Shown one piece after another: positions 24,781 through 42,737 of a stretch of 42,737 nucleotides of DNA (position 1 is the stretch's first letter; the number at the start of each line of letters is the position of its first letter). Below the pieces are notes generated by a model. The model was not told where the DNA came from and searched no databases. It worked only from the letters and a program-made list of their open reading frames with translations. The DNA is from Atopobium deltae (GTDB taxonomy: Bacteria; Actinomycetota; Coriobacteriia; Coriobacteriales; Atopobiaceae): positions 1 to 42,737 of the forward strand of contig NZ_KQ959496.1 in the NCBI RefSeq assembly GCF_001552785.1, in the 5' to 3' direction. A program made the translations under genes and the position numbers.

Positions 24781-26625
24781 TTACATCTTCGTCGGAGCCG
24801 AAACGCCAATCATCTTCAGGTTTAGCGCCAACACGCGACGCACGGCATCGCAGGCAGCAAGACGTGCGTGCGAGAGCTCCCGATCCACAGAATGACCCTC
24901 AGAGGGCAGAACCTGGCACGCATTATAAAATGCGTGGAAGTCGCTGGCGAGCTCCTCTAAATAATGCGTCAAGCGAAACGGAGCGCGGTCGCGAGCGGCC
25001 GAGGCGATAAGATCGCTCATGGCGTTGAGCTTACGGGCAATTTGCAACTCAGTGGGGTCGGTGAGCAGCGAGAGGTTGTAGTCATCCCCGATGGCCTTCT
25101 CGGCAACCGCATCCATACCCAGCTGCTGGGCCTGGGCGTTATCGACACCTGCGGCGCGGCGCAAAATGGAGCAAATGCGCGCGTGAGCATACTGCACATA
25201 GAAGACGGGGTTGGACGCATTGCGCTGCTTGACAGCCTCGATGTCAAAATCGATCGTCTGGTTAGAGGACTTCGATACCAAGGTGTAGCGCGTGGCATCG
25301 ACACCGACCTCGTTGATAAGTTCTTGGAAGGTGACCATCGTGCCCTTACGCTTGGACATACGAACGGGCTGACCAGAACGCAGCAAGTTTACGAACTGAC
25401 CCAAGTCGACCTCGAATTTGCCTTCGTAGCCAAGTGCATCGCAGACGTTTGTTACACGCGCGATGTAGCCGTGGTGGTCGGCACCCCACAGGTCGATGGA
25501 GTAGTCGTCACGCTGCAGCTTATCCCAGTGATAGGCGACATCGGAGGCAAAGTAGGTGTACTCGCCGTTTGATTTGATAAGCACGCGGTCCTTATCGTCA
25601 CCAAAGGTGGTCGAACGGAACCACAGCGCGCCATCATCGGTTTTATACAGGTGGCCCTTTTGCTCCAAACGGGCAAAAGCGCGATCCACCGGAGAGGTGC
25701 CCGTCTCGTCCTTGACATACAAGCTGCGCTCCGAGAACCACATGTCAATGGGGCAACGAGCCTCTGCGATCGTGGCTTTAATGCGTGCCATCATTGCCTG
25801 GTACGCGCGCTCCCTAAACTGGTCGGTGCGCTCCTTCGCATCAAGCGAGGCCCATTTGTCGCCATCTGCCTGGTAAAACTCGCGAGCAATTTCGATGATG
25901 TAGTCGCCACCATAGGCGTTGCCACCCAGTGCCTCATTAAAGGCATCCATGTAACGATGCGTCTCGGGCTTCTCGTCAGCCTCGTCTTCCACGTAGGCTT
26001 CGCGATCGGCAAGAAGGATGTCAAAAGCCTCGTCCACACTGATGTGTTTCTCGTTGATAAGATCGACGAGCTGCGTGTAACGAACGGCGACCGAACCACC
26101 AAATACGTCCATCTGGCTGCCATGATCGTTGATGTAATACTCGCGACATACCTTGTAGTTGGCGTGCTCTAAGACATTGCACATCGAGTCGCCCAACGCC
26201 ACCCAGCGGCCGTGGCCGACGTGCAGAGGACCAGTTGGGTTGGCCGAGATGAACTCGTAGTTGACCTTGAGGCCGTGGCCCTCGTCAACGCGACCAAAAT
26301 CGTCGCCCTGCTCGCGAACCTGACGGATAACCTCATTGTTGGCTGCAGCGTTCAAATAGAAGTTGATGAAGCCAGGACCTGCGATTTCGACCTTCGCAAT
26401 AGAGGGGTCGGAAGGCAGATGCGATGTAATGATCTGGGCAATTTTTGCGGGAGCCATGCGGGCCGCACGAGCTGACCTGAGAGCAACCGTTGAGGTCCAC
26501 TCGCCATGGGAGGTGTCGGCGGGTCGCTCGACACCGGCGTTTTCTACGGTAAATTCTGGTAGCTCGCCTGCCTTTTGGGCAGCGGCAATTGCCTGTAAAA
26601 CTAATGCTTCAATCGTGTCGGGCAT
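24781..26625 (-). CDS. argS: Arginyl-tRNA synthetase
   Basis: A 614-residue class I synthetase that charges tRNA-Arg. The N-terminal ArgRS-specific domain is followed by the HIGH motif as HVGH (135-138) in SANPTGPLHVGHGRW. The KMSKS-equivalent is MSKRKGT, and the C-terminal DALR anticodon-binding domain ends the protein. The ATG at 26625 has GAGGAG 7 nt upstream. Length is normal. Upstream 26626-26833 has no gene. Confidence 0.97.
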   Translation of the reverse strand: MPDTIEALVLQAIAAAQKAGELPEFTVENAGVERPADTSHGEWTSTVALRSARAARMAPAKIAQIITSHLPSDPSIAKVEIAGPGFINFYLNAAANNEVIRQVREQGDDFGRVDEGHGLKVNYEFISANPTGPLHVGHGRWVALGDSMCNVLEHANYKVCREYYINDHGSQMDVFGGSVAVRYTQLVDLINEKHISVDEAFDILLADREAYVEDEADEKPETHRYMDAFNEALGGNAYGGDYIIEIAREFYQADGDKWASLDAKERTDQFRERAYQAMMARIKATIAEARCPIDMWFSERSLYVKDETGTSPVDRAFARLEQKGHLYKTDDGALWFRSTTFGDDKDRVLIKSNGEYTYFASDVAYHWDKLQRDDYSIDLWGADHHGYIARVTNVCDALGYEGKFEVDLGQFVNLLRSGQPVRMSKRKGTMVTFQELINEVGVDATRYTLVSKSSNQTIDFDIEAVKQRNASNPVFYVQYAHARICSILRRAAGVDNAQAQQLGMDAVAEKAIGDDYNLSLLTDPTELQIARKLNAMSDLIASAARDRAPFRLTHYLEELASDFHAFYNACQVLPSEGHSVDRELSHARLAACDAVRRVLALNLKMIGVSAPTKM

Positions 26626-26833: not shown

Positions 26834-28315
26834 TCATCGTCGTCCCGAGTGCAATTGTTCTTCTCGGCTGAGCGCACCGCGCAATTCTGCCAGGCCCTCT
26901 TCCATACCCACGGGATATATCTGAGGATTTAAGAAGCGCTTGACCGCAGGATCCAAATGCATGAGGGCATCGTGAGCGCGCTGACGCGCCTTGGCAAGAT
27001 CCGTAGGCACCTCGCAGGCACAGCCCGCGTCGACCAGCTGCTGTAGGAGGGCAAAACTGCGATAGCCACTAAAATCATACGAGGTATACGGGTCAATAAC
27101 ATCAATAGCGCGGGCGGAGCCTTCGTGCTGATAGCTGTCACCCACGATCATGTCGCCCACAGGACAATGGCTGGCATCCACAAAGCGGATTACCTGCTGC
27201 ACCCCTGGAATCGTGCGCTTATACATTTGCTCAGAAATTTTCATGACGGGCGTCCACGGATCGGCAGGCGTTGCGCGTATGGCGCTGAGCTTGTAGACAC
27301 CGCCAAGCGAGGGCTGCGGATCACAGGTTGCCAACTTGGTGCCGACGCCAAAGGAGTCGATGGGTGCGCGCTGAGCCATGAGTGACTGGATAGTATGCTC
27401 GTCAAGGTCGTTAGAGACGGAAATTTTTACGTACGGCAGGCCCGCATCATCAAAGGCTTTGCGTGCATAGGCGCTTAGTTTTGCAAGGTCGCCCGAGTCA
27501 ATGCGTATGGCACTTAAGCGCTCGCCTGCTGCTTCCATTTCGCGCGCGACGGTGATGGCATGCTCCACACCGCGGCGCACGTCATAGGTGTCTACCAGCA
27601 ACACGCAGTTTTTGGGACTCGACTTTGCAAAGGCTCGAAACGCCTCGAGTTCCGAAGAAAATGCCATAACCCACGAATGCGCATGCGTACCAAAAACGGG
27701 GATACCATACATTTTACCAGCCAAAATATTGGAAGTTGAATTGGCACCGCCAATGTAGGAGGCGCGAGCGACGCTTAAGCCTCCGTCGGGTCCCTGCGCA
27801 CGACGCAAACCAAAATCAGAAATGGCATGACCTTCGGCTGCCTGGACCACACGGGCAGTTTTGGTCGCAACCAACGTCTGGAAATTCACGAGGTTGAGCA
27901 AAGCGGTTTCGAGCAGCTGGCAATCAATGATGGGTCCCTCTACACGAACCATGGGCTCGCGCGGAAACACGAGTTCACCTTCGGGAACAGCCCACAACGA
28001 GACACGCATGCTAAAGCTGCGCAGGTAATCTAAAAATTGTGGGGTGAACATCGCGCCGCCACCAGGTGCCTGCAGTGACGCAAGGTATGCGAGTGCCTCA
28101 TCGTCAAACGAGAAGTTCCTGACGAGGTCAATAATTTGACCAACACCGCAGCTAATGGCATAGCCTCCACGAAAAGGATTTTCTCTAAAAAAGACCGTAA
28201 AACAGGCGTGGGTATCGACAAGACCCGACTCAAAAAAACCCTGCGCCATGGTGAGTTCATATAAATCGGTGTTGAGCGCTACATCAGTGGGTTTGGTTTT
28301 ATCGGTTAAAGGCAT
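26834..28315 (-). CDS. pncB: Nicotinate phosphoribosyltransferase
   Basis: A 493-residue enzyme making nicotinate mononucleotide from nicotinate and PRPP, the entry step of the Preiss-Handler NAD salvage route. The N-terminal LNTDLYELTMAQGFF is diagnostic. GTHAHSWVMAF carries the histidine that is phosphorylated in the family, and RIDSGDLA and FGVGTKLATC form the phosphoribosyl site. The ATG at 28315 is chosen because it gives the family N-terminus; the frame to 28348 adds 11 unrelated residues. It is the last gene of a same-strand group (Sir2, radical SAM, tail-anchored protein, this gene) and starts 34 nt after the previous stop. Confidence 0.93.
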   Translation of the reverse strand: MPLTDKTKPTDVALNTDLYELTMAQGFFESGLVDTHACFTVFFRENPFRGGYAISCGVGQIIDLVRNFSFDDEALAYLASLQAPGGGAMFTPQFLDYLRSFSMRVSLWAVPEGELVFPREPMVRVEGPIIDCQLLETALLNLVNFQTLVATKTARVVQAAEGHAISDFGLRRAQGPDGGLSVARASYIGGANSTSNILAGKMYGIPVFGTHAHSWVMAFSSELEAFRAFAKSSPKNCVLLVDTYDVRRGVEHAITVAREMEAAGERLSAIRIDSGDLAKLSAYARKAFDDAGLPYVKISVSNDLDEHTIQSLMAQRAPIDSFGVGTKLATCDPQPSLGGVYKLSAIRATPADPWTPVMKISEQMYKRTIPGVQQVIRFVDASHCPVGDMIVGDSYQHEGSARAIDVIDPYTSYDFSGYRSFALLQQLVDAGCACEVPTDLAKARQRAHDALMHLDPAVKRFLNPQIYPVGMEEGLAELRGALSREEQLHSGRR

Positions 28316-28348
28316 AACATTCTCTTTTCCGTGGGGACGGCGTAGCAC

Positions 28349-28684: not shown

Positions 28685-29818
28685 TTATGCATCATCATAA
28701 TATGACGAGCGACGCGTTGCAGTCCACGTTGGATCAAGCTGGAGCTCGGGGCCATCCACGCCCGTCGCATCAAACTCGGGAATGAAGCTTTCGGACACCG
28801 TACCACCCTGCTGCCACCACATGCGCTCAAAGCCCAGATCATCCGCATGATCCAGCACGATTTCGTACTCCTCATCGGTCAAGGTGCGCGATAGCTCTCC
28901 CCCGTGCACGCGACAATACTCGTTGGGCGTGTATTGATTCATCACCGAAATATCAATGTCGTTGCCCGCTAAATCCCACAGCAAATCCAGCACGGCACAC
29001 GAGTCATCGGTGTGGTCTGGCATCACTAAGTGTCTGACGATAATACCAACTTTTAATGCACCATCATCGCCAACGACGCGGGTGCCCCGAGCTCGCACGA
29101 ATTGCAGCATTTGCTTGAGGGCTTCGGTGGCGATGCGCGGATAATTGGGAGCTTTCGAGAATTTCCGTGCGAGTACATCGGATGCATACTTAAAATCGGG
29201 CAGCCAAACATCAACAACATCACCCATGATCTGCACGGTGCTAACCAGCTCATAGCCCGAGGTATTGCACACAATGGGAATGCTCAAGCCCGCAGCACGT
29301 GCCATTAAAATGGCTTGGCGAACCTGAGGCGCAAAGTGCAAAGCGGTTACCAAATTGATGTTGAGCGCCTTTTGTTTTTGCAGCTCAAGCATCATGTTTG
29401 CAAGGCGTGCAACCGAAACCTCGTGGCCATAATTGGTCTGAGAAATTTGCGTGTTCTGACAAAAAATGCAGCGCAGCGGACAGCCCGAGAAAAAAATTGC
29501 GCCCGAACCCGCCTCGCCCGAAATGGGTGGCTCCTCCCAAAAATGCAAGGCACTACGTGCTACGCGAACGTTTTGCCCTGCGCCGCAAAAACCGTGTTTG
29601 CCCTGCGCACGGTGTGCCTTACACACACGAGGGCAGAGCATGCAGGCTTGATATGCGCTGTATGCGGGAACAACGGGTGCGTTGGCGGCAGTGCCAGCGG
29701 TGGAGGTAGTTCCTGCGACGGCGGTGGCGGCGGTGGCGGCGGTGGTGGCGGTGGTCGTGCTGATGCCGACGCTAGCAACGCTTGCAACACATGAATTGTT
29801 ATCTGAATGTACAGACAC
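28685..29818 (-). CDS. Radical SAM protein of the PflA/PflX-like group
   Basis: A 377-residue iron-sulfur enzyme. The 4Fe-4S motif is CPLRCIFC (C113, C117, C120), next to the SAM-binding region and followed by a TIM-barrel-like pattern. The front carries the extra cysteine cluster CMLCPRVC (59-66) and GFCGAG (76-81), found in the uncharacterised group annotated as PflX-like pyruvate formate-lyase activating enzyme homologues. Residues about 17-50 are Thr/Ala-only low complexity encoded by GGCGGT-type repeats. The start is GTG at 29818 with AAGGTC upstream; a later start is possible. No pyruvate formate-lyase lies nearby, so the target is unknown. Confidence 0.82.
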   Translation of the reverse strand: MSVHSDNNSCVASVASVGISTTTATTAATAATAVAGTTSTAGTAANAPVVPAYSAYQACMLCPRVCKAHRAQGKHGFCGAGQNVRVARSALHFWEEPPISGEAGSGAIFFSGCPLRCIFCQNTQISQTNYGHEVSVARLANMMLELQKQKALNINLVTALHFAPQVRQAILMARAAGLSIPIVCNTSGYELVSTVQIMGDVVDVWLPDFKYASDVLARKFSKAPNYPRIATEALKQMLQFVRARGTRVVGDDGALKVGIIVRHLVMPDHTDDSCAVLDLLWDLAGNDIDISVMNQYTPNEYCRVHGGELSRTLTDEEYEIVLDHADDLGFERMWWQQGGTVSESFIPEFDATGVDGPELQLDPTWTATRRSSYYDDA

Positions 29819-30716: not shown

Positions 30717-30785
30717 TTTTCATACTTTTTTACACGGGCGGGCGACACTTGTGTGCGCCTGCTTTTATTGTGTTCACTGTTTATT

Positions 30786-30962
30786 GTGCGTGGTTTTTCC
30801 ACTTATGCGTATCGTATCTGTATATCAGTATACGCAACATGGAATATTCCTAAACCTTATTATCTAACCTATGATGTTAATGAAGAAGATGATGAGCTCT
30901 ATGATTACCCTACACATGTCACCGCTGAAGAGCGTGAGCCCATCAAAAAGCACGGATGGTGA
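30786..30962 (+). CDS. Short ORF ending in a P-H-T-E-IKKHGW motif
   Basis: 58 residues from a GTG at 30786. The first about 20 residues (RGFSTYAYRICISVYATW) look poor, but the rest, from NIPKPYYLTYDVNEEDDELYD to PTHVTAEEREPIKKHGW, reads like real protein. The end is similar to the end of the next ORF. The true start may be lost, making it a fragment. It is divergent from the sirtuin gene. Confidence 0.3.
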   Translation: MRGFSTYAYRICISVYATWNIPKPYYLTYDVNEEDDELYDYPTHVTAEEREPIKKHGW

Positions 30963-30969
30963 CCGAATC

Positions 30970-31053
30970 ATGCAAAAAACTCTAATCTTCCCTCCTAACC
31001 CACTTCATATGACCAAAGTAGAGTACGAGCGCATAAAACGCATCGGCTATTAA
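30970..31053 (+). CDS. Very short ORF with the same C-terminal motif
   Basis: 27 residues (MQKTLIFPPNPLHMT, then KVEYERIKRIGY), 7 nt after the previous stop and in another frame. PLHMT with IKRIGY mirrors PTHVT with IKKHGW of its neighbour. It may be a tiny gene or the tail of a duplicated, decayed gene. Confidence 0.3.
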   Translation: MQKTLIFPPNPLHMTKVEYERIKRIGY

Positions 31054-31063
31054 ACAATATTTT

Positions 31064-31360
31064 TCAAACATCACAAGAACCAAACTCTTTTGTAGCTTTT
31101 ATGCGCTTCTTCAGGAGCTCATCCGTTAGCTGAAATATTCGTTTATCCTTATCTCTTTCATCATCAAAAACAAAGTTTTCCAGCGTCTCATTTTTGTCTT
31201 CAGAAACTGTATACCACGCTTTATTCGTAAGAAAATAGGGCATAATTAAGTCCATGTAATACAAACTCCTCATGTCGACGAGCTGCAAAACTGACAAAGA
31301 ACAGCCACCAAAGCACGGTTGTGGTGTTTGGTTAGTTAGCGGTGTTTGGTTAGTTAGCAT
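31064..31360 (-). CDS. Unknown small protein downstream of the RHH gene
   Basis: 98 residues starting with an ATG that overlaps the stop of the RHH gene (TGATG). The N-terminus holds a perfect duplication of the hexapeptide LTNQTP. A later ATG (MDLIMPYFLTNKAWYTV) may be the ancestral start, since the part from there on looks better conserved in character (FVFDDERDKDKRIFQLTDELLKKRI). Charged and probably soluble. Family not recognised. The overlap suggests it is translated together with the RHH protein. Confidence 0.5.
   Translation of the reverse strand: MLTNQTPLTNQTPQPCFGGCSLSVLQLVDMRSLYYMDLIMPYFLTNKAWYTVSEDKNETLENFVFDDERDKDKRIFQLTDELLKKRIKATKEFGSCDV
31323..31358. repeat. Perfect 18-bp tandem duplication inside the small gene
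   Basis: GGTGTTTGGTTAGTTAGC occurs twice head to tail (31323-31340 and 31341-31358), encoding LTNQTP twice on the reverse strand. Confidence 0.9.
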
Positions 31361-31536
31361 CACTTAGCTATTTTGCATATCCTTGCGGATAAAGCGCGTA
31401 AATATTCAGCCTTTTTAGGCTGTTGTTGCAAATACTCATACAAATCATGGTCGGCAGGAAAGAACTTCAACGTAAACGACTTGATATTTTGCTTACGGTA
31501 CTTCTCGGTAGCTTTTAGTTGTGCTTGAGTTGCCAT
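31360..31536 (-). CDS. Small ribbon-helix-helix-like protein
   Basis: 58 residues, too short for usual ORF cut-offs. It begins MATQAQLKATEKYRKQNIKS, then FTLKFFPADHDLYEYL and a second helix EYLRALSARICKIAK. The MAT-AQ-KA-EKY-K start with a short beta strand and two helices resembles small Arc/RHH-type DNA-binding proteins often found on mobile elements. AGGGG lies about 7 nt before the ATG. Four 10-bp repeats lie 28-67 nt upstream and could be its operator. It could serve as an antitoxin-like repressor for the overlapping downstream gene; that role is inference. Confidence 0.6.
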   Translation of the reverse strand: MATQAQLKATEKYRKQNIKSFTLKFFPADHDLYEYLQQQPKKAEYLRALSARICKIAK

Positions 31537-31563
31537 TGTCTGCCCCTATATAAGAAAATCACG

Positions 31564-31603
31564 GTTGAGCGTAGTTGAGCGTAGCTGAACGCAATTGAGC
31601 GGA
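31564..31603. promoter_or_regulatory. Four 10-bp tandem repeats upstream of the RHH gene
   Basis: On the plus strand the units are GTTGAGCGTA, GTTGAGCGTA, GCTGAACGCA and ATTGAGCGGA, head to tail with no gaps. The 10-bp period equals one helical turn, which would put successive binding sites on one face of the DNA. The position just upstream of the RHH start suggests an autoregulatory operator. Confidence 0.6.
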
Positions 31604-31644
31604 ACGATTCCAACATAAGTTCGACGTAAGCAGAAATAAAAAAA

Positions 31645-31668
31645 TGGTGGAGATGAAGGGATTCGAAC
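31645..31668 (-). other. Prophage attachment core: orphan tRNA/tmRNA 3' end
   Basis: Read on the reverse strand, the 24 nt are GTTCGAATCCCTTC followed by ATCTCCACCA. This is a T-loop (TTCGAAT), the 3' half of a T-stem (CCCTT), an acceptor strand (CATCTCC), a discriminator A and CCA. The 5' T-stem half that should precede it is absent: upstream TAATG does not pair with CCCTT, and no D- or anticodon arm exists. So only the 3' end is present, as expected at the distal att site of an element integrated into the tRNA or tmRNA gene. Confidence 0.8.
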
Positions 31669-31741
31669 ATTATTACAATCTCTATAAATTTTTATATTTA
31701 TGCTGTTAATCGGCGTTTTTTGGTGCTTGTGTAAATAGCAC

Positions 31742-31759
31742 CTGTCACTAATCTGTCAC
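31742..31759. promoter_or_regulatory. Candidate integrase arm-type sites
   Basis: CTGTCAC occurs at 31742-31748 and 31753-31759 as direct repeats 11 bp apart, about 75-90 bp inside the prophage from the att core. That is the usual arrangement of tyrosine-integrase arm sites. Confidence 0.45.
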
Positions 31760-32003
31760 ATGGAAAATGGGCATATAGAGTTTTTTTAAGTGTATTTTCC
31801 TGCGCATATAAAATAGTATTTATTACTATAGCAAAAAATGCAGTCACGTTGTGCGCATGTATAAAATTCTCAAAAATAACACTTTTTCGTGTAATTAAGG
31901 TATAAATACTCGTTTTGTAATTTATCGGGGCTTAGAACGCCTTACAACGGCTCGTTTACCTGCGGTTTTATAGATTGAAAAATGCTAACATAAACTAAAA
32001 ATA

Positions 32004-32042
32004 CCCGCCTTGCATGTGCAACAATGTAACACGCAAGGCGGG
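32004..32042 (-). terminator. Terminator of the prophage late operon
   Basis: CCCGCCTTGC (32004-32013) pairs perfectly with GCAAGGCGGG (32033-32042). On the reverse strand TATTTTTAGTTT follows. It lies 5 nt past the last phage stop codon. Confidence 0.85.
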
Positions 32043-32047
32043 GCTAG

Positions 32048-32239
32048 CTATCCTCTAACAACACAACTAACGGTTTTCTTCTCGTTGTCTATGCTAATTT
32101 GAGCGGCGTAATATGTATCTTGAATAAAGTCGAATAGCGCTTTTTTAGACTTGAAAAACAACACACGCTGCTTTCGGTAATTCATGCCGCTGTTTGGTGT
32201 TTTTACCCACAACGTAAGTCGCCATTTATCTGCAAACAT
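32048..32239 (-). CDS. Small phage protein after the endolysin, unknown
   Basis: 63 residues from the ATG at 32239, right after the endolysin stop at 32241. A longer reading from 32293 would overlap the endolysin end and is less likely. Basic and aromatic, with alternating strands (WRLTLWVKT, RVLFFKSKK, TVSCVVRG). Not recognised; it could be a lysis accessory or a lysogenic-conversion gene because it is the last gene before the terminator. Confidence 0.5.
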   Translation of the reverse strand: MFADKWRLTLWVKTPNSGMNYRKQRVLFFKSKKALFDFIQDTYYAAQISIDNEKKTVSCVVRG

Positions 32240-32240
32240 A

Positions 32241-33248
32241 CTAACCTGCCGCCTTGATGGATAGCGCGCCAGTTTGGTCGGCTTCAACTTCAACTGTTCC
32301 TGTTAGCATTGCGCCTGTTTTATCGAACGCGTACACTTTGCCGTTAATCTCTTTTAGACAATCAACAATGCATGCACCATCTTTTGATGCGTCCGCATAG
32401 TAGTACTTGTCGCCTTCTGTAAGCCAGCCTGTAGCCATCTGCCCGCCAGCCTTGGCAAAGTAGTATTTCTTGCCTTCGATGGTCTGCCAGCCTGTAAGCA
32501 TAGCGCCTGAATCGTCCAGGTAGTACCAGCTGCCGTTAATCTTTTTCCAGCCTGTGACCATTGCTCCTGAATCGTCTAGGTAGTACCATGTGTCGCCGCG
32601 CTTGAGCCAACCTGTAACCATATAGCCATGTGTGTCGAACCAGTACCACTTGCCGTTAATCTTTTCCCACTTATCTGCGGGATAGCTTGCGTCTTGGCGC
32701 TTGTACCACCATCCTGTTTCGTTTTTAATCCAGCCTTGCGCCGTGGTGCTGCCTTGTGTAATTTGCGCCTTTAGTGCTTGCCATTTGCTCTCATTGATAT
32801 AAGGCGCGGGGCAGCGCTTGTAGGCTGATGCGGTTTTGCCTTTTGTTGCAATTCGCGCCGCGTCATGATGCCTATATACACGGCTTGCGGGTATGCCATA
32901 TTTAGCCATGAGGTGTTGCACAAGCCACGTCAATTCGCTAATTTCAGCGCTTGTAAAATCTCGTCCATCGCTTACAACTTCAATTGATATGCTTCGCTGA
33001 TTTAAGTCAAAATTGCCCACTGCCCATGCGGTGGAATCCTCGGGTACGCTGATATAAATTGTGCCTGTACCGTCAATGAAAAAATGCGCACTAGCGTTTC
33101 TGTTTGCACGGGAAAAGTACAAGCAATTATTACGCGCGCTGCCTTGGTTGCTCGTGTAATGAACAAAAATATATTCAACGCGTTTGCCGCTTCTGCCTTT
33201 TGTGTACGTATGCGGACTGGCGTAAATTGCCTTGAACGGGTAACTCAT
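32241..33248 (-). CDS. Endolysin: N-acetylmuramoyl-L-alanine amidase with wall-binding repeats
   Basis: 335 residues. An amidase_2 domain (about 1-160) cleaves the bond between muramic acid and the peptide stem. Zinc ligands appear to be H30 (FVHYT), H127 or H128 (RHHDA) and C146 (RCPAPY). From about 172 to 325 run tandem aromatic repeats of the choline/glucan-binding type (GWLKRGDTWYYLDDSGAMVT and similar), which anchor the enzyme to the cell wall. No signal peptide is seen, so release needs the holin just upstream. The start overlaps the holin stop by one base (TAATG). Confidence 0.92.
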   Translation of the reverse strand: MSYPFKAIYASPHTYTKGRSGKRVEYIFVHYTSNQGSARNNCLYFSRANRNASAHFFIDGTGTIYISVPEDSTAWAVGNFDLNQRSISIEVVSDGRDFTSAEISELTWLVQHLMAKYGIPASRVYRHHDAARIATKGKTASAYKRCPAPYINESKWQALKAQITQGSTTAQGWIKNETGWWYKRQDASYPADKWEKINGKWYWFDTHGYMVTGWLKRGDTWYYLDDSGAMVTGWKKINGSWYYLDDSGAMLTGWQTIEGKKYYFAKAGGQMATGWLTEGDKYYYADASKDGACIVDCLKEINGKVYAFDKTGAMLTGTVEVEADQTGALSIKAAG

Positions 33249-33667
33249 TATTTATCGCCTTTTTCGTCCTGGTGCTTTTGCATAGAATCAAGCGCTTGGA
33301 ATAGTGGACTATGCGCTAAGTTGGGGTTAATCTTGCCAATGGTTTCAAGGCACGATGCAATTTCCATCACGATAATATATGAGCAGCAGCCCAGGAGCAC
33401 GGGGCTGTCAATGCCGAGATGTAGTCCACCTTTAAGCGCTCCATCAATGACAATGCCTAAAAGCACAAAGCATATTTCTGATGCCTTGTGCGCCATACCT
33501 TGCCGCGCCACGCTTGACGAATATTTATGCTGTGCGATTGCCGCCGCGCTTCCTAAAAGCCAATCAAAGAAAATGAGCAGCAATACTGCCACAATTGCAA
33601 TTTGTGCAAGCTCTGAATCTCGCACGGGCGAGAAAAACACATCAATATAGTTGGGAATGTGATACAT
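33248..33667 (-). CDS. Phage holin (toxin-secretion/lysis holin family)
   Basis: 139 residues with hydrophobic helices at about 20-38 (IAIVAVLLLIFFDWLLGSA), 66-78 and 83-100, and a charged C-terminus (QKHQDEKGDK). The FDWLLGSAAAIAQHKYSSSVARQGMAHK pattern, a short helix then DWLLG and a basic loop, is typical of the holin_tox_secr family. It forms membrane holes that let the endolysin reach the wall. Confidence 0.85.
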   Translation of the reverse strand: MYHIPNYIDVFFSPVRDSELAQIAIVAVLLLIFFDWLLGSAAAIAQHKYSSSVARQGMAHKASEICFVLLGIVIDGALKGGLHLGIDSPVLLGCCSYIIVMEIASCLETIGKINPNLAHSPLFQALDSMQKHQDEKGDK

Positions 33668-33687
33668 AGTTACTCCTTATAATTGAA

Positions 33688-34665
33688 TTAGTAAAACCAC
33701 ACGGCTTGTCCCCATGTTGGGTGCTTTGCTTTTGCTTCTACTCCTCGTTTTTGGACTTTTACGTTACCGTCTGTGCCAACTTGAACGCACGCCACCCACG
33801 GATCACCTGTATCCACGCATAGCGGCACTTGGATCCATTGTTTGGGGCAATATTTTTCGGGTATCCAGCCAGCGCCCGTGTACGCGTGACCCCACGGGCC
33901 AAGGTTAAGCGGTAGTGTTACTCCTCGAACTTCAAGAATTGCAACGCCATTTCTGCATGCAAGGCGCAAATATTCGCCATTTGCCTTATTCCACTCGCCT
34001 AGCTTCTCAAAAATGCTGCCTGTGCCGTCCTCGATGGATAAAACGCGGCTGCGCAAGCTTGCAACGTCGCTATTGATGCCCGCTATGCCAGATTTCACGG
34101 TTGCGATGTCAGATGTATGCGCCTTAACTGTGTCTGCTGCGTCTTTAAGCGTTGTCATGACGGGCGTTATGCGTTCGGGCTTGTCGGCTTGGATGCCGTC
34201 AAGGCGTACACGCCACAATGGCAAGTCAACAATTTCATCTCCCTTAAAGATTGAATTATTCTTATGGGTATCGGGGTCTGATGCTTCATCGCTCGGGCGG
34301 TATCTGCCGCCGTGATAGTCATATCCGCCGCCTGTCGTCTCGCCTTTGACAACGACAAGCGAAGCGCTCTCTTGTGAGCCTTGCTTTTGGTAACGAATAC
34401 AGATTAAGTCGTTTCGCTGCCCTGTTTGCGAGCCATTCTCAATGGTTACAGTCTCGGCCTGCTCGGACACAATCAAACGTCCGTCAATGACGGCTGCTCC
34501 CTTGCCTACGGTCACTTGGTTTGCGCTTACTTGCGTTGACTTGAAATTATCCAGCACGTCAAGTACGCATTTACCCTTGCCCACAACACCTGCCTGCCAT
34601 GCTGCGGCTTGTGCTGCGGTTACATGTGGGCTTCCTGTATGCGTTGTTACTAATTCAAGCGCCAT
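33688..34665 (-). CDS. Phage tail fibre or baseplate-type structural protein
   Basis: 325 residues. The N-terminal part (ELVTTHTGSPHVTAAQAAAW) resembles virion proteins placed near the receptor-binding module. The middle (about 170-210, TVKAHTSDIATVKSGIAGIN and after) has heptad-like spacing suggesting a trimeric coiled coil. The C-terminal about 100 residues form a Gly/Trp-rich domain that could bind a host receptor. It is placed after the tail-associated protein, where receptor-binding proteins usually lie. Function inferred from position. Confidence 0.6.
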   Translation of the reverse strand: MALELVTTHTGSPHVTAAQAAAWQAGVVGKGKCVLDVLDNFKSTQVSANQVTVGKGAAVIDGRLIVSEQAETVTIENGSQTGQRNDLICIRYQKQGSQESASLVVVKGETTGGGYDYHGGRYRPSDEASDPDTHKNNSIFKGDEIVDLPLWRVRLDGIQADKPERITPVMTTLKDAADTVKAHTSDIATVKSGIAGINSDVASLRSRVLSIEDGTGSIFEKLGEWNKANGEYLRLACRNGVAILEVRGVTLPLNLGPWGHAYTGAGWIPEKYCPKQWIQVPLCVDTGDPWVACVQVGTDGNVKVQKRGVEAKAKHPTWGQAVWFY

Positions 34666-34667
34666 TA

Positions 34668-34898
34668 TTACTCCTTGTCTGCCTTCATGAATTGCAAGAA
34701 CTCCGCGTCATGCTTGCGGGCTAGCTCTCGATACTTTGCGGCGCAACTTGTGCATAAAAGGCGTGTTACACCCACACCGTCTGCCGTTATACGCTCTATG
34801 GTTGAATACATAAGCGCTTCTGACGAATCGGGCTGTGCGAACTTCTCGGTAACGCACCGGTCACACGAATACTTGCTGAAACCGTCTGTTTTTGCCAT
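34668..34898 (-). CDS. Small Cys-rich phage protein
   Basis: 76 residues with two CxxC pairs (CDRC at 12-15 and CTSC at about 49-52), suggesting one zinc-ribbon site, followed by a charged helical tail (KYRELARKHDAEFLQFMK). It lies between tail genes with spacings of 2 and 9 nt. Not recognised. Confidence 0.6.
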   Translation of the reverse strand: MAKTDGFSKYSCDRCVTEKFAQPDSSEALMYSTIERITADGVGVTRLLCTSCAAKYRELARKHDAEFLQFMKADKE

Positions 34899-34907
34899 AT
34901 CTGCTCC

Positions 34908-36461
34908 TTAGTCGGTAATAAAAGTGAAATTGCCATAGATTTGCTGCGTACCCAGCGTTCCAGAACCTAGCCCCCATACAATAATTTCTCCTGTTGGCTT
35001 AATTTCTGCGGCTATTTCTGCATATGAGTGTTTGCCAACGATTGCCACCTCAATCGGAAAAGCGGGTCTCATGTCATGCGGTAGCGTTGCTATGGTATGT
35101 GTAGAACGTGCGTTCGGTAGTTGTGCCGTCCATCCGTCAATAGTTCCCGCTACCACTTTGCCGTATCTTTTGACGTGCAAGCGCTCGCCATTCTCACTAT
35201 AGGTGCGCTCATAAGGCGCGCTTGTGCTTGTTGCCAGCCTGTATGCGTCATCTGCGCGGCTCTTTGCGTCTTGTGCTCGTTCGTATGCATCGTCCGCTTT
35301 TTGATAGGCTTCATCGGCTCTGTGTTGTGCTTGGTCAGCGCTCGCCTTGGTCTTTTTGGTTTCGGCTTTTGCTTCGTCCGCTTTTTTGTCGGCAGCTTGT
35401 GCGGTTGCTTGTGCTGCTTCGGCTTTTTTGGTTGCGGCTTGAGCTTCTGATGAACCTGTGCCGTCTGAGGCGGGCACGGGCTTTTCTGCCTCGGGTGCAT
35501 CTTCTTTTTTGGCGGCGGTGCCTATTTCGTACTGTACCTTGAGCACACCATCTTTGATGCGTGCAATCTTCTTTTTGATTGGTGCCTGTACAATGATGCC
35601 TGTGCGGGTGTCTCGCGCCTCGATGATGTCGCCTACCCACCAGTTCTCGACGCGCGCAAGGTTTGCGTCAACGCCGCCTTGCTGTTGCAGCTCTTTGAGC
35701 TTCTTTGTGCCATTTTTGGCAAGCTCCTCAGGCTCTGCGCTTGATGCGTCGTAGGTCTGCGAGCGCTCGGCGCTTCCGTAAAAGGTTTTTGTGCGGCTGA
35801 TGTTGCCGTGCTCGTCTGCATACAGATGCAGCACTTGTCTGTCTTTGAGCCCGCCTTTGCCAAGGCAAACGAGGTGGTTTATGGGCCGTACTGCTTTTGT
35901 CACGCTGAATTGCATGATGTCTGTGTCGACCTCGTTGCCAATGGTTGCGACCTTTTGAGCGCATATATGCACATATGCGTCAATGTGCGCCATGGTAAGC
36001 TTTGCGCCAGATGCCGCGAGCATGTCTTTGATGCCCGTGTAAGCGTCGACATAGCGCTTAAATTGATAATCGATATGCACGGGGTCGCATACGTCGACCA
36101 CAAAAAGCTTGTCGAGCGATATGCGCTTTATGAGGCGTGTAAGCACGTTTTGTGCGTCACCTTGAGCGCGCAAGTAGTCTTGCCCCGCGTCGGGCTCAAG
36201 CACTTTGTCGGTAAGTATGCCGTGCCACGTGCGGCCCTTGTATGTGGTCGCTTTGAGATTGGACGTGCTTTTTACTTCGTCGACGATGCCGCCATATTCA
36301 GTGCCGTCAATATAAACAAATTCCCCGCCAAAAAGTAGCGGGGAATCGAATGTGAGTTCAAAATCTTGTTCGCCTGAACCAAAGGCAAAATCGCCCTTAT
36401 AATTTTCGATTAAAGCGCGCGGGGTGCCTTGTGCATCGGTAATGGTTAGTAATGCGTCCAC
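34908..36461 (-). CDS. Phage tail-associated structural protein
   Basis: 517 residues, start GTG at 36461, overlapping the previous gene by 16 nt. The N-terminal about 300 residues resemble the Gp37/Tal-like tail proteins of siphoviruses (opening with LLTITDAQGTPRALIENYKG, then YKGRTWHGILTDKVL). Residues about 335-415 are an Ala/Lys/Glu/Gln/Asp coiled coil with near-heptad repeats (KKADEAKAETKKTKASADQA). A C-terminal about 90-residue beta domain follows. It would form the tail tip or fibre attachment. Confidence 0.75.
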   Translation of the reverse strand: MDALLTITDAQGTPRALIENYKGDFAFGSGEQDFELTFDSPLLFGGEFVYIDGTEYGGIVDEVKSTSNLKATTYKGRTWHGILTDKVLEPDAGQDYLRAQGDAQNVLTRLIKRISLDKLFVVDVCDPVHIDYQFKRYVDAYTGIKDMLAASGAKLTMAHIDAYVHICAQKVATIGNEVDTDIMQFSVTKAVRPINHLVCLGKGGLKDRQVLHLYADEHGNISRTKTFYGSAERSQTYDASSAEPEELAKNGTKKLKELQQQGGVDANLARVENWWVGDIIEARDTRTGIIVQAPIKKKIARIKDGVLKVQYEIGTAAKKEDAPEAEKPVPASDGTGSSEAQAATKKAEAAQATAQAADKKADEAKAETKKTKASADQAQHRADEAYQKADDAYERAQDAKSRADDAYRLATSTSAPYERTYSENGERLHVKRYGKVVAGTIDGWTAQLPNARSTHTIATLPHDMRPAFPIEVAIVGKHSYAEIAAEIKPTGEIIVWGLGSGTLGTQQIYGNFTFITD

Positions 36462-37282
36462 GGCGGGATACTCTCCTCTTCAAAGTACTCAAGCGTAAAG
36501 TTAAATGAGCCGTCCCAGCGCACAATCTGCTCGCCTTGCTTGATAGGCTCGAAAATGTATGAGCCTCGACCCAAACCACGCCCGCGCTCTGCCTTATCGA
36601 AAATGTTGGTCACGCTTCCTACTTGCGAATGCAGCTCCACGGTCTTTTTAAGGCTGTCTACGACCACGAAATCGCCTGCCAGAATAGATGTGCGTAATTG
36701 GTAGTGATTGCCTCCCACAATGACGCACGGGTCGTTTGCGGGCCCGTAAATGGTGAGCCTGAACGAAATTGCATCGGATTGGCCAAAGTCGAGCGTCTGC
36801 GCAAAAGGCTCTTGTGCGACGTAATCGAATGCGTAATCGTGCGGGTAATCTTTGCCTGTCGTGGTCGTCTTTACAGCTTGTGCGACAAATTGTTTGGTGT
36901 GCTTTTTGCGCCAGCAGCCATCGATGAGAACGGCTTCAATGCTGCACTCTGCTGTGCCGTCGACGTTGAGTTTGTCGAGCTTTGTGCCAGTCACAAAAGC
37001 ATGCTGCTCCCAGCATTTTTGCGCGACCATCACGCCAGCTATGCCAGCTTTGATGTCTGCGTTGGCCGCGCGCCTTAGCGCATCGAGTTCGTCAAGTTCA
37101 AGCGCAGTTACTTTAATTGTCGCCTTTTTTGCCTTAAGAATCGGCGCTGCTATGCCTCGAACTTGTAGCTCATAATTCCACGCGTAAGAGCGAACATCTT
37201 CGGCCGTCCCACTGTATATAGCGTCGCCGTCAAGGCCGACTGTGACACGTTTTGCAGCAGAAATGTACTTAAGCTGATCCAT
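36446..37282 (-). CDS. Phage distal tail protein (Dit-like)
   Basis: 278 residues placed directly after the tape measure (3 nt), the position of Dit in siphoviruses. The beta-rich C-terminal half (QLRTSILAGDFVVVDSLKKT, then ERGRGLGRGSYIFEPIKQGE, then FNFTLEYFEEE) fits the Siphovirus_tail family, which joins the tail tube to the baseplate. The identification rests on position and this pattern. Confidence 0.7.
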   Translation of the reverse strand: MDQLKYISAAKRVTVGLDGDAIYSGTAEDVRSYAWNYELQVRGIAAPILKAKKATIKVTALELDELDALRRAANADIKAGIAGVMVAQKCWEQHAFVTGTKLDKLNVDGTAECSIEAVLIDGCWRKKHTKQFVAQAVKTTTTGKDYPHDYAFDYVAQEPFAQTLDFGQSDAISFRLTIYGPANDPCVIVGGNHYQLRTSILAGDFVVVDSLKKTVELHSQVGSVTNIFDKAERGRGLGRGSYIFEPIKQGEQIVRWDGSFNFTLEYFEEESIPPWTHY

Positions 37283-37285
37283 GCG

Positions 37286-39283
37286 CTACACCAGCCTTGC
37301 TTGCTCGCGCTGCGAGAGCACGGGCGTGTACTGCGAGATGATGTAAGGCATAACCTCCGCCAAGGCGGACGCCACAGCATCTTGCATGTCTTGCTTTGTC
37401 ATATCTGAATTGCCCCCAATACGAGAAGCGATGTAGTCGGCAAATGGGTGCATGGCACGGCCCTCCAAAGGCGTAATAAGCTCGTTGTGCCTTGCTTCAC
37501 CCACAACACCAAGCTGCGGCCCACCGAATGCGGGGCCAACGATGCCGCCTTTTGCGTAAAACGAAATCTTAGGCAAGCGGAAGTGCAGCGGGTTTAAGTC
37601 GAAGCCACCTTCGATGTGAAGCGTGGGTACGTGGATGTTTTTAAACATCGCAGCGATTTTGCCTGGTATAGACGAAAAGAAATCACCGATAGACTTGGGA
37701 ATGCCGCGGAAGAAGTCAAGGATGCCCCGTCCTGCATTTTTGGCGGCGTTGAGCGCGCCGTTGAAAAATCCGCCAATTTTACTCGGGATAGACGAGAAGA
37801 AGCCAGCGATTCGAGAGGCTGCCCCGCTCAAAAATCCGATGAGCCTGTCCCAAGCGCCTTTTATGCCGCCGAGCGACGACACAAAAGAGCTGAGCAAGTT
37901 TGCCACGAACGCCGTGATGCGTCCCACAGCACCTGCAACCGCAGCCACTACAGTGCCAACGATGTTTACAACATGCGTTAGCGCGCTTGCGATAAAGCTC
38001 AAGATTGGCATCACGAAATTAACCACAGGCGCCACCGCGGGGAGCACCGCCTTAATGCAGTTGATGATGTTTGTGACTATCGCCACGATAAGCCCGCCGA
38101 CATTGCCCGCAAGCGTCATGATGTTTTGAAGCGCACCGTTTTGGGCCATCTCATCAATGGCATCTTTTGCCGCTTGGAAAAGCCCCGAGATTGCGTCTGC
38201 TAAAGGCGCGAGCTGACTAGTGAAGCCAGAAAAATCAAAGGGGCTGTTTTGCAGCTGTTCGGTGATAAGGCCGAAAATTTTCCCCGCAAAGTCGGGAATC
38301 TGCGTGATAAGGTCTGCTGCCATGCCAAAGGCGTTTTGTAAAGCACTCGCGATGGAACCAGCAATGCCAATCCAATCAATGCCTGTAACAAGCGTGCCGA
38401 CAATATCTGCCATCGCAGGAACAGCGGCCTGAATGACCGACGGAAGCGCATTTGCCATGTTCTTGGCGACATTGGCCACAATGGGAAGTAGATTCTGTGC
38501 CACCTGACCGATACTCTCGACGAGCTTTTGCGTCATGCCTTCAATGTCGCCCGAGGGGTCAGCAAGTGCAGAAAGCCAGTTTTCCCACGCTGCTTGCATG
38601 GTTTGGATAGAGCCTTGAATGGTATGTGATGCTTCTCTTGCAGAGTTGCCCGTGATGTTTTGAGCCTCTTGCACGTCGTGAATTGCTTGGATGACATCGC
38701 TGTACTTCTCAATGGTCAAGTCGCCAGCTCGCCCCTGTGCCTTTTCAAGCTCATTGGCGTCTTTAATGAGGCGCTGCATCTCTGACTTGGTGCCGCCATA
38801 ACCAAGCTTTAGGTTGTCAAGCATCGTGTAGTTTTGCTTGGCAAAGCCTTGATAGGCGTTTTGCACGTCCTGCAAGTTTGTGCCAAAAATGGAGGCATTA
38901 TCTGCCATATCCTTGATAGCAAGGTTTCCGAACTTAGCTGCTTGCTGAACGTCACCGCCGAGCGATTGCTTAAGCGCTGCACCGAAGCTGTTAATTTGGC
39001 TCATGTACTGGTTCATCGACACGCCAGAAACCTTGTAGGCTTCTGCCGCATCTTGCATAACTTGTTTTGATGCGTTGCCGAAGATCGTCTGAACGCCGCC
39101 TTCAAGCTGCTCAAAGTTCGAATATGCATCAATTGCAGCCTTGGACACGCCACCTATGGCCGCAGCTGTTGCGGCTGCTGCTGTGGCAAGTCCTGCGGTG
39201 ATACCAGAAAAGACCTTGCCGTCAAAGCCTTTCATGGAGGGTATGATCGACAAAAACGCCGAGCCAACCTCTGTATTTGCCAT
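37286..39283 (-). CDS. Phage tail tape measure protein
   Basis: 665 residues. Long hydrophobic helices in the middle (about 270-470) and Gly/Phe/Ile-rich repeats (FFSSIPSKIGGFFNG, FFRGIPKSIGDFFSS) are hallmarks of tape measure proteins, which set tail length and later open a path for DNA. A YAKGGI motif and Gly-rich C-terminus are also typical. The length would correspond to a fairly short siphovirus tail. The start overlaps the upstream stop by one base. Confidence 0.92.
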   Translation of the reverse strand: MANTEVGSAFLSIIPSMKGFDGKVFSGITAGLATAAAATAAAIGGVSKAAIDAYSNFEQLEGGVQTIFGNASKQVMQDAAEAYKVSGVSMNQYMSQINSFGAALKQSLGGDVQQAAKFGNLAIKDMADNASIFGTNLQDVQNAYQGFAKQNYTMLDNLKLGYGGTKSEMQRLIKDANELEKAQGRAGDLTIEKYSDVIQAIHDVQEAQNITGNSAREASHTIQGSIQTMQAAWENWLSALADPSGDIEGMTQKLVESIGQVAQNLLPIVANVAKNMANALPSVIQAAVPAMADIVGTLVTGIDWIGIAGSIASALQNAFGMAADLITQIPDFAGKIFGLITEQLQNSPFDFSGFTSQLAPLADAISGLFQAAKDAIDEMAQNGALQNIMTLAGNVGGLIVAIVTNIINCIKAVLPAVAPVVNFVMPILSFIASALTHVVNIVGTVVAAVAGAVGRITAFVANLLSSFVSSLGGIKGAWDRLIGFLSGAASRIAGFFSSIPSKIGGFFNGALNAAKNAGRGILDFFRGIPKSIGDFFSSIPGKIAAMFKNIHVPTLHIEGGFDLNPLHFRLPKISFYAKGGIVGPAFGGPQLGVVGEARHNELITPLEGRAMHPFADYIASRIGGNSDMTKQDMQDAVASALAEVMPYIISQYTPVLSQREQARLV

Positions 39284-39977
39284 TAGTCCTCCTTTCTGCT
39301 GCTCCAGAAAGTCTCAAATTCTTGTTTTGTCACAGGCTTGCTGCCGAAACGCTTGACGTCTGCTTTCTTTTGCTTGATGCCTGGTCTTGGAATAGGTTCA
39401 GGCTGCTTTACGGCGTGCTCCGAGTGAGAGGCGGTGTAGATGTATTGCATGCTGCGCAGCTCGTCCACAAGAAGCGCTACAAGCTGCGGAAGCACAGCAG
39501 GTGATTCCCACAAAGCTTCGTCTTGCCTGTCTTGGTGCATCTGCTGCCACAAAAGCGACGTTTTGTCCAAACCCGAGATAAAAGAAAAGAGCGCCCGCCA
39601 CGGAAGCGAGCGCCCTAAATCGTCAAGTGTGAAATGTGTGCGCACCATTAAGTCGTATTCAAGCGCTTGCTGGTGATGCGCCACAATCGGAAGCAAGCCT
39701 ATTATTTTCCCTTTTGGCCCTTGGTGAGCTCGCTTTTGTCAGACCACTCTTTCATGATCTTGCTCAAGGCCGTCATGGGCAAAAGCTCCACGTTGGGAAC
39801 GTAGCGCTTTAAGTACGTCAAAAACCAGCGCGCAAACTCTGCTGTGCTCGCACCTTCGGTGCTGAAAAGCTCTGCCGCTTCGTCAAAATCCTGAACTGTC
39901 GGCTCAAGCGGGATGCTGTATGTTTGCCCGTCGACATCAATATCGAGCGTTTTTATTTCAGTGGAAAATTTAAGCAT
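39283..39977 (-). CDS. Tail assembly chaperone, -1 frameshift fusion (GT-like)
   Basis: Predicted 231-residue fusion: 91 residues of the short form, then after slippage Ile-Ile-Gly and 137 residues read in the -1 frame to 39283. That second part has no ribosome binding site of its own; its only in-frame start is a TTG at 39696 inside the hairpin. The C-terminal part (TLDDLGRSLPWRALFSFISG, then Gln/Lys-rich) would be the T-like region that binds the tape measure. The stop overlaps the tape measure start. Confidence 0.8.
39665..39711 (-). promoter_or_regulatory. Programmed -1 frameshift signal
   Basis: Slippery heptamer G GGA AAA (39711 down to 39705) is in the correct frame and is directly followed by the TAA of the short form. 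Six nt later a stem GCTTGCT (39698-39692) pairs with AGCAAGC (39671-39665), the usual stimulatory hairpin at the usual distance. Confidence 0.85.
39702..39977 (-). CDS. Tail assembly chaperone, short form (G-like)
   Basis: 91 residues ending KGQKGK then TAA. It lies between the tail tube and tape measure genes, as lambda gpG does. Its last codons contain GGGAAAA, where some ribosomes are expected to slip back one base and make the long form. The short and long forms together coat the tape measure during tail assembly. Confidence 0.85.
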   Translation of the reverse strand: MLKFSTEIKTLDIDVDGQTYSIPLEPTVQDFDEAAELFSTEGASTAEFARWFLTYLKRYVPNVELLPMTALSKIMKEWSDKSELTKGQKGK

Positions 39978-39991
39978 GCTTCAAGCTCCTT

Positions 39992-40573
39992 TTATGCAGA
40001 AAATACGCCGTCGTCTGTGTAGATGTAAATGTTCTTGCCTCGCTCATCAGGCGCGCAGTTAAGCTCAATGCCAATGGTCGCGGCATCCGAAGACGTAAAT
40101 GAAATGTCATCCGAGATAGTTGCCTGTCCGTTAGGAACGACGAGCAGCACTTTCTTCTTGCCGTCTTTGATTTTGAAAACCCAGCTTCGAGGACTTGGGA
40201 TCTGTGCTCCGATTGCCACAGAAACTCGCGTGCCGTGGTCTTGTCCTGCCGCCTCGGTGGTTACAGAATCTGTACCAAAAGCGCGCTCGAGCGACTTTTT
40301 GGAAACCTCGAGCTCTGTCCACTTCACTGTTCCCGTAAACTCTTTTAGGATCTGACGGATGCCTGCGGCCGACCAGTCGCGGATGGTCTCGGTGGAAGTC
40401 TTAAGCGACAAAGAAACACCATCCTCCGAAATGTAGCCAGAATCTTCAAAGGCGGCGTTAATCTTGTCGAGTGCGTGCGTCGGAAGCTTTGTTCCCAGCG
40501 GCGCATCACAAATAGCGCCTGTAACCAACTGGTCAGGGGCGCCAACTAAAACGTTGCTAGCATTTACTGCCAT
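39992..40573 (-). CDS. Major tail (tube) protein
   Basis: 193 residues from the ATG at 40573 (AGGAG 8-9 nt upstream; the frame to 40591 adds 6 residues overlapping the previous gene). Beta-rich, with Ig-like spacing (VSVAIGAQIPSPRSWVFKIK, then KVLLVVPNGQATISDDIS). Position before the chaperones matches siphoviral tail tube genes. Confidence 0.75.
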   Translation of the reverse strand: MAVNASNVLVGAPDQLVTGAICDAPLGTKLPTHALDKINAAFEDSGYISEDGVSLSLKTSTETIRDWSAAGIRQILKEFTGTVKWTELEVSKKSLERAFGTDSVTTEAAGQDHGTRVSVAIGAQIPSPRSWVFKIKDGKKKVLLVVPNGQATISDDISFTSSDAATIGIELNCAPDERGKNIYIYTDDGVFSA

Positions 40574-40583
40574 TTTTTGTCTC

Positions 40584-40943
40584 CTATTCATCGTGAATGT
40601 TGCAGACGAGCGAGAAGCTCACCTGCCATATAAAGTATCCTGCGTCGTCCCTGCCATATGAAAAGACATTCGGCGCTGCGCATGTGTTTACATGCACGTC
40701 CTTCATCGGGCGCGTTTTAAGCCCAATTGCCAGCACGTGCGCCAGCTCTTCGCTTTTGGCTTCGGACTTTGTGTAAATCGATACGCTGTATTCGGGCGCG
40801 TCGTGCGGATAGTCCATAACGCCACCCGTGCGGTCAACAAGCGCATACGCATTAGGCGTGTTTTTCTGCGCGTAGGTCGACGTTGGAATCTCGAGCACGT
40901 CCTGCACATAGCCAATTACGTACTCGATGGAGCTGAATATCAT
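40584..40943 (-). CDS. Probable tail terminator or neck protein
   Basis: 119 residues with a mixed alpha/beta pattern and a segment PEYSVSIYTKSEAKSEELAH like the small proteins that cap the tail tube. It sits immediately before the tail tube gene and overlaps the previous gene by 4 nt (ATGA). Function inferred from position. Confidence 0.6.
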   Translation of the reverse strand: MIFSSIEYVIGYVQDVLEIPTSTYAQKNTPNAYALVDRTGGVMDYPHDAPEYSVSIYTKSEAKSEELAHVLAIGLKTRPMKDVHVNTCAAPNVFSYGRDDAGYFIWQVSFSLVCNIHDE

Positions 40944-41233
40944 TTGCCGCCTCCTAGCGCCTTTTGTAGCGTGTTGTGTATTCTGTTCGAACGCATAGAG
41001 TGCAGGTCACCTGTGTACACATAGGCCCTTGCTCTTGTTTGTCCTTGCTTTATTCGCACACGGTAGCCTTTTGCGCCATACATTGCGTTGGCTTTCTTGG
41101 CAATGCGCTCCGCTTTTGCTCTGATGAGTGCCTTTGTTGCAATCGAGCTCAAGATGGCTGTTCGTACCTTGTTCGGCTTGTATTTAAGCTTTACGGTCTG
41201 GCCGTTTACGCTCGCTTCGATTTCGTTAGCCAT
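40940..41233 (-). CDS. HK97 gp10-like head-tail joining protein
   Basis: 97 basic residues (KALIRAKAERIAKKANAMYG, then YRVRIKQGQTRARAYVYTGD), the style of the gp10/neck family in this slot of siphovirus genomes. Overlaps its neighbours by 4 and 8 nt. Assignment by position and composition. Confidence 0.55.
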   Translation of the reverse strand: MANEIEASVNGQTVKLKYKPNKVRTAILSSIATKALIRAKAERIAKKANAMYGAKGYRVRIKQGQTRARAYVYTGDLHSMRSNRIHNTLQKALGGGK

Positions 41234-41570
41234 CGTATGCCTCCAGCATCACAGCGCAGCTGTACGGAAAGCCTTTCGGGAGCATCTCGCAGGGGTACTC
41301 TAAAGGATCACCCACAACTTTAAGCCAGCGTTTTTCATCGGTGCTTACAAGCGCTCCACGCAGCCGAGAAGACCATCCGCGCGGGAAAAATACCGTCGCA
41401 GACACCTTCACCCCTTCGGGTTTTGATGCTGCTAAGTCCTGCGAAATGCCAGGGGCAAATAAGCAGCCATCGACCGCGGTACTTTGCGCATGTTCATGCA
41501 CTTTGTTGCCAAGGCGATCTTTGCCCGCGCTGGCCTGTAAGCGAACGTAAAGCTTCATCTTCGGTCTCAT
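41226..41570 (-). CDS. Probable head-tail adaptor (stopper)
   Basis: 114 residues, beta-rich (MKLYVRLQASAGKDRLGNK, then GVKVSATVFFPRGW and WLKVVGDPLEYP), consistent with the head-closure proteins between connector and gp10-like genes. The ATG at 41570 overlaps the connector stop (ATGA); a second ATG is at residue 5. Confidence 0.6.
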   Translation of the reverse strand: MRPKMKLYVRLQASAGKDRLGNKVHEHAQSTAVDGCLFAPGISQDLAASKPEGVKVSATVFFPRGWSSRLRGALVSTDEKRWLKVVGDPLEYPCEMLPKGFPYSCAVMLEAYDG

Positions 41571-41953
41571 GAGCCCACCTTTTGATTGATGAAGTACATC
41601 TCGGTGGTGCCGATGCCTAAAAGATGCTTTTCAAATGCCGTGAAGTAGATGTCACCTGTTGGGTTCGCGTAGGAAACGCTGCCGCTGAACGGTGCCGCCC
41701 CCCAGCTTTCAGAAGTCGCTCCGATTGGGGTTTCGGTGCCTGCTTGAAGAGCGCGTGACACAGCTTGACACACAACGAACGTGAGAACCTCAGGATCAAT
41801 CGACTTATAATCGCTGCATTGAGCTCGTATGATTGCCGAAACAAGCGCAAGCAGCTTATCAGCACGCTTGCGCTTTGTCTCGTCATAGCAAGGACAAACA
41901 TCAGCCAAGTCATCTACGGTTGCAAATGGTTTAGGCGTGTTTGTCGTATCCAT
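41567..41953 (-). CDS. Head-tail connector protein (gp6/Gp19-like)
   Basis: 128 residues, helical N-terminal half (FATVDDLADVCPCYDETKRK, then ADKLLALVSAIIRAQC), typical of the small helical connector that docks under the portal. It follows the capsid gene directly (TAATG overlap), the normal position. Confidence 0.7.
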   Translation of the reverse strand: MDTTNTPKPFATVDDLADVCPCYDETKRKRADKLLALVSAIIRAQCSDYKSIDPEVLTFVVCQAVSRALQAGTETPIGATSESWGAAPFSGSVSYANPTGDIYFTAFEKHLLGIGTTEMYFINQKVGS

Positions 41954-42737
41954 TATTTGCCTGCGCTCTTAAGAACAGCAAAGCCCTTGGGATCGACGCA
42001 CGCAAAGCTGTACACGACGCCCAGACGGTATGCAACCTCGTCTTTGTAGGCAAGGTCATAACCCTTGTTGTCAGGGTCACCAGCGGTGATAACGTCCATG
42101 TAAATGTCGCGAACCATGCCCCACTTGATGAGGTTGAAGTTGCCGAGAATTGCCAACACATTGGTTGCGGTAGTGGCAAGAGCACCGTTTACAGCAGAAG
42201 AGGTGGCCGCGGCGATGCCATCAAGCTGTCCTGCCTTGAGGTTCAAAGGAATCTCGGGGAACAGACGATAACCCGTCCCGTCTGCGCGAACGCTGCGCAG
42301 AGAGCCAGCGTATGCCTTGGACAAAGCGATACCGTCGATGTCGTAATCAGGAACAGCGGCCACAAGTGCGTCTAGATCCTTCACGGGGTCTTTGGAAGCA
42401 GTCACCACATTTGCTTGCGCGGTAAGACCTGCTACACCATTGATGGCGGTACCCGTTGCGGGGTTAATGCCATGAAGCACAGCGTAGTCAAGCGCACGGC
42501 CAAGCGCAGAAGAAGCGCTATCGATAAGCGTGTCCAAGATCTCGGTCTTGGCATCCTCGTCTGCCCACTGAACCTCTTTGTTCATACGAACAGTAACGTG
42601 CGCCTTCTTAATGATGCCCTGTACAGGTTTAAACTCCACCTGCTGAGAAGTGTGAGCGCCGCCCTCGTCGACAAACTCGGCCTCAGGCTCCTTGGCAAAG
42701 AAGATGTTGGTGGTGTCCTGGAAAAGTACAGGCTTCG
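41953..42737 (-). CDS. Major capsid protein, HK97 fold (5' end beyond the window)
   Basis: The open frame runs to the window edge, giving the last 261 residues. The visible part begins KPVLFQDTTNIFFAKEPEAE, then EFVDEGGAHTSQQVEFKPVQ, the conserved E-loop to P-domain region of HK97-type capsids. The GTG at 42639 is internal and not the start. The Ala/Gly-rich middle and the C-terminal DEVAYRLGVVYSFACVDPKG strand also fit. Forms the icosahedral shell. Confidence 0.88.
   Translation of the reverse strand, partial: KPVLFQDTTNIFFAKEPEAEFVDEGGAHTSQQVEFKPVQGIIKKAHVTVRMNKEVQWADEDAKTEILDTLIDSASSALGRALDYAVLHGINPATGTAINGVAGLTAQANVVTASKDPVKDLDALVAAVPDYDIDGIALSKAYAGSLRSVRADGTGYRLFPEIPLNLKAGQLDGIAAATSSAVNGALATTATNVLAILGNFNLIKWGMVRDIYMDVITAGDPDNKGYDLAYKDEVAYRLGVVYSFACVDPKGFAVLKSAGK

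Follow-up and report, generated by a model that had tools for sequence, protein, structure and literature searches.

Insertion into a tRNA gene is a textbook route by which a bacterial virus enters the chromosome, and where a tyrosine integrase acts at the 3′ end of such a gene the tRNA is left whole, since attP carries the same 3′ end. In Eggerthella lenta, tyrosine-integrase prophages of about 31–42 kb have their attB sites in tRNA-Leu, -Ser, -Ala and -Arg genes, with DSM15644phi3 (clade 3) and DSM2243phi4 listed at tRNA-Ala, and attP circularisation has been demonstrated by PCR for several E. lenta prophages (PMC8778435).

The window analysed here is a 42,737-bp stretch of Atopobium deltae DNA that constitutes the entire contig C14 of a genome assembled into 35 contigs (1,447,260 bases, about 97% complete). 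A short segment within it, at 31644–31668, is almost certainly the att site at the far end of a prophage, temperate and of siphophage type, whose own tyrosine integrase inserted it into the 3′ terminus of tRNA-Ala(CGC). The tyrosine integrase and the tRNA-Ala site are features shared with the E. lenta prophages, whereas the phage and the host genome differ. Prophages in tRNA-Ala having already been published for that species, the present case is clean but ordinary. Its value is that a boundary is fixed for a prophage that the assembly broke into three contigs, and that attB is named as tRNA-Ala(CGC). With a deduced attP and its likely arm sites in hand, an excision PCR is simple to design.

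The late module is shared, gene order included, with the viral contig IMGVR_UViG_2541047018_000001 (L120), the head and tail proteins of which are 41–55% identical and the terminase 60%, but the stretch of it that was examined is without a matching integrase or replication module. Scans of the genome_contigs and viral_contigs sets with the integrase returned distant relatives only, mostly 22–31% identical. An integrase of 49% identity in genome G015 (L114) has an orphan tRNA 3′ end (TTCGAATCCCTCCTCCTCCGCCA) no more than about 100 bp away. That tail derives from another tRNA, and the G015 integrase sits beside the orphan fragment, whereas the one described here sits beside the intact tRNA. The integrase of genome G026, 33% identical, likewise ends near the orphan 3′ tail of a different tRNA.

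The orphan tRNA end and its partner

An earlier note, made from the letters of the window, had claimed an orphan tRNA or tmRNA 3′ end at 31645–31668 as the mark of a prophage attachment site. The orphan end is real: on the minus strand, the 24 nucleotides read as a T-loop (TTCGAAT), the 3′ half of a T-stem (CCCTT), an acceptor strand (CATCTCC), an A and CCA, and no tRNA is called at these positions by ARAGORN or Rfam. With up to two mismatches allowed, the 24-mer is present at only two sites in the genome, the second being C24:14312–14335, and the reversed 24-mer, used as a control pattern, gave no genome matches. Simple arithmetic puts the random expectation for a 24-mer in a genome of this size at ~1e-8, which rules out chance as the origin of the repeat. 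The true identical block extends to 25 nt, 31644–31668 being equal to C24:14311–14335, and ends abruptly on either side.

The copy on contig C24 completes, at its 3′ end, an intact tRNA-Ala with anticodon CGC (complement of 14312–14387). In this tRNA the 5′ strand GGGGATG is paired with CATCTCC, and the pairing includes G3:U70, a pair typical of alanine tRNAs. The intact tRNA with the same 24-nt end that had been predicted is therefore found, on the reverse strand and in direct-repeat orientation, and it begins with one of the two 5′ ends (GGAGATG or GGGGATG) that had been derived from the acceptor strand. The 3′ end of the tRNA is directly repeated at the two boundaries of the prophage; both the 25-nt repeat and its orientation are seen directly.

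So is the integrase, which had been expected near the far end. A gene for a tyrosine integrase of 354 amino acids (C24:13016–14080) is directed toward tRNA-Ala and ends 231 bp short of it. The protein has a Phage_integrase catalytic domain (PF00589, 86.5 bits), a SAM-like core-binding domain and an N-terminal Arm-DNA-bind_4 domain.

Matching 11-bp repeats in tandem (CCTGTCACnAAnCTGTCACAT) are present on both phage arms of the deduced attP. In the window these lie at 31741–31762 on the plus strand and are 20/22 identical to the region C24:14139–14160. Two 11-bp units in tandem make up this 22-bp match (CCTGTCACTAAtCTGTCACAT and CCTGTCACAAAcCTGTCACAT), at distances of 73 and about 150 bp from the core. 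No local match between the arms is better, and none of 500 shuffles reached its score. The heptamer CTGTCAC occurs four times in the approximately 32-kb prophage, always within the two repeat sites. The paired repeats (CCTGTCAC) are probably arm-type sites, putatively bound by the N-terminal domain of the integrase.

Two other origins of the fragment deserve consideration. Taken by itself, the acceptor strand would suit a tmRNA as well as a tRNA, and the earlier note had accordingly kept a tmRNA as a possible partner. That part of the claim did not hold: the only other copy of the 24-mer at up to two mismatches belongs to tRNA-Ala(CGC), whose end it forms, and integration at ssrA is refuted in this genome, at its completeness of about 97%; the chance that a tmRNA gene was the target is negligible. 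The other possibility is that the adjoining phage has nothing to do with the fragment, which would then be a tRNA pseudogene in decay or a relic left by an older element. The AT-rich DNA and the small phage-type gene on its host side mean that an older element may indeed have used the site, but the identity of the copy is 100% across 25 nt and breaks off abruptly on both sides, and the phage arms adjoining both copies have the matching 11-bp tandem repeats. Moreover, no other core-like sequence lies nearby, a search allowing up to six substitutions having yielded true tRNAs only. An unrelated relic is thus very unlikely.

For an att site generated by the adjoining phage, the course of events would be as follows. 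The attP and attB sites would share the 25-bp core, from the T-loop through CCA. Because an identical 3′ end comes with the phage, recombination would leave the tRNA whole at the integrase end, on C24, and the 25-bp copy would remain at the lysis-gene end, in the window. The C24 side would then comprise the 5′ part of the host tRNA, the core and the integrase arm, and the window side the late arm, the core and the host downstream DNA. Excision would restore attB, in which tRNA-Ala would be followed by TTTTTTTATTTC, and the element is presumably still able to excise.

Phage genes on three contigs

Phage genes are directly observed at both boundaries. To the right of the att copy in the window, a phage arm of about 335 bp leads to a terminator-like hairpin on the minus strand (32004–32042) that closes the late operon; it has 14-bp arms, −29.6 kcal/mol with flanks and a z of −4.2, and a T-rich tail follows. 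The fragment had been said to lie exactly between host-type genes and this terminator, which proved too strict: the arm intervenes on the right and about 930 bp of AT-rich DNA on the left. Beyond the hairpin, the operon runs leftward, all on the minus strand. It encodes an endolysin of the amidase_2 type with choline-binding-type repeats (32241–33248), a holin (33248–33667, phrog_199), a minor tail protein (34908–36461, phrog_538), a distal tail protein (36446–37282, a weak match to phrog_33), a tape measure protein (37286–39283, 41% to L120), a major tail protein (39992–40591), connectors with a head closure protein (41226–41570) and a major head protein (41953–42735), the N terminus of which lies beyond the contig end.

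Left of tRNA-Ala, C24 encodes a primase/helicase, a helicase, an SSB-like protein, an AAA protein, a YqaJ-type nuclease and a RusA-like resolvase, together with a repressor-like protein and, near the integrase, a phage endonuclease-like protein. Pfam portal and terminase models gave no matches across the genome, and a search with the terminase protein of L120, the nearest relative, located a third contig, C27 (6,630 bp). It carries the terminase that is 60% identical to that of L120, a portal, a protease and a scaffold protein. Because L120 keeps its terminase, head and tail genes consecutive, in that order, on a single contig, C27 in reverse fits between the end of the window and the start of C24. 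We infer a prophage split over window positions 31669–42737 (lysis, tail, head), C27 (terminase, portal, protease, scaffold) and C24:1–14311 (replication, repressor, integrase). The pieces sum to 32,010 bp, plus unsequenced gaps, and phage genes for virion structure, packaging, lysis and replication all lie between the two boundaries. Synteny, gene order and homology point to the linkage from window through C27 to C24 across these gaps; no end overlaps were found among the three contigs.

A 128-bp repeat common to C27 and a second phage-like locus on C25 may have caused the assembly to break. This second locus of the same genome (L221, C25:1–19999) also bears a terminase gene, and the openings of C25 and C27 are nearly identical over 38 bases in addition to the 128-bp stretch.

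The uninterrupted site and its surroundings

In 11 of the 16 relatives inspected, the alignment of a radical-SAM gene starts 62–705 bp past the CCA of tRNA-Ala(CGC), and nicotinate phosphoribosyltransferase (NAPRTase) and then argS follow beyond it, the order found in the window (28685–29818, 26834–28348 and 24781–26625, respectively, all on the minus strand). This direct succession of tRNA-Ala(CGC) and radical-SAM in 11 family members supports it as the predicted uninterrupted site, and the empty site in these relatives is observed directly. Here the three host genes border the window fragment, and tRNA-Ala itself is on C24, beyond the phage.

In both same-genus genomes (G001 and G002) some 270–380 bp separate tRNA-Ala from the start of glutamine synthetase III (GSIII), and neither has a clean empty site. 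On one contig of G002 the order is GSIII, tRNA-Ala, 6 kb of unrelated genes, radical-SAM, NAPRTase and argS. G001 has recombinases and no radical-SAM within 10 kb; its tRNA-Ala gene (L100:9888–9961) ends CTCCAC followed by TA, so that the encoded CCA is lost, and genes for large serine recombinases are found within 8 kb. In the present genome GSIII is on contig C33. C24 and C33 probably meet, because each terminates inside a HamB gene with complementary profile positions (569–865 on C24, 1–573 on C33), and the two flanks of a single ancestral locus are thereby accounted for.

The earlier note had also named, as evidence to the contrary, relatives with the same fragment and no phage beside it. 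Such cases were looked for, and in the family members searched all other copies of the 24-mer (at most one mismatch) coincide with intact tRNA-Ala matches. No att-like tRNA-Ala repeat of at least 14 nt lies within about 10 kb of tRNA-Ala in the 16 relatives, and hence the search of these stretches yielded no second element with this core.

The AT-rich DNA between Sir2 and the att core (30717–31644, about 930 bp) has a GC content of 40%. It contains a gene for 53 amino acids (31378–31536, minus strand), 47% identical to a gene of C27 and 76% to one near a prophage of genome G029, and is possibly what remains of an element that used this site earlier. L003:15113–17615 and L222:1–7784, which lie 5′ of tRNA-Ala and before GSIII, hold a PDC-S14 candidate, Hachiman HamB and HamA, and a type III restriction-modification pair; GSIII in this genome lies on the far side of tRNA-Ala, past this defence island. 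It is conceivable, although on balance somewhat doubtful, that tRNA-Ala(CGC) is a two-sided hot spot, with the prophage in its 3′ end, the remnant of an earlier element beyond (Sir2 and the AT-rich DNA with its small phage-type gene) and the defence island extending 5′ up to GSIII. Where HamB is split at two contig ends (L003:17580–17615 and L222:1–60), the ends carry the inverted 11-mer TGAGTGTCGCA and have GAAAAAAGAAAAAA in common, which looks like an unassembled multi-copy insertion sequence within HamB.
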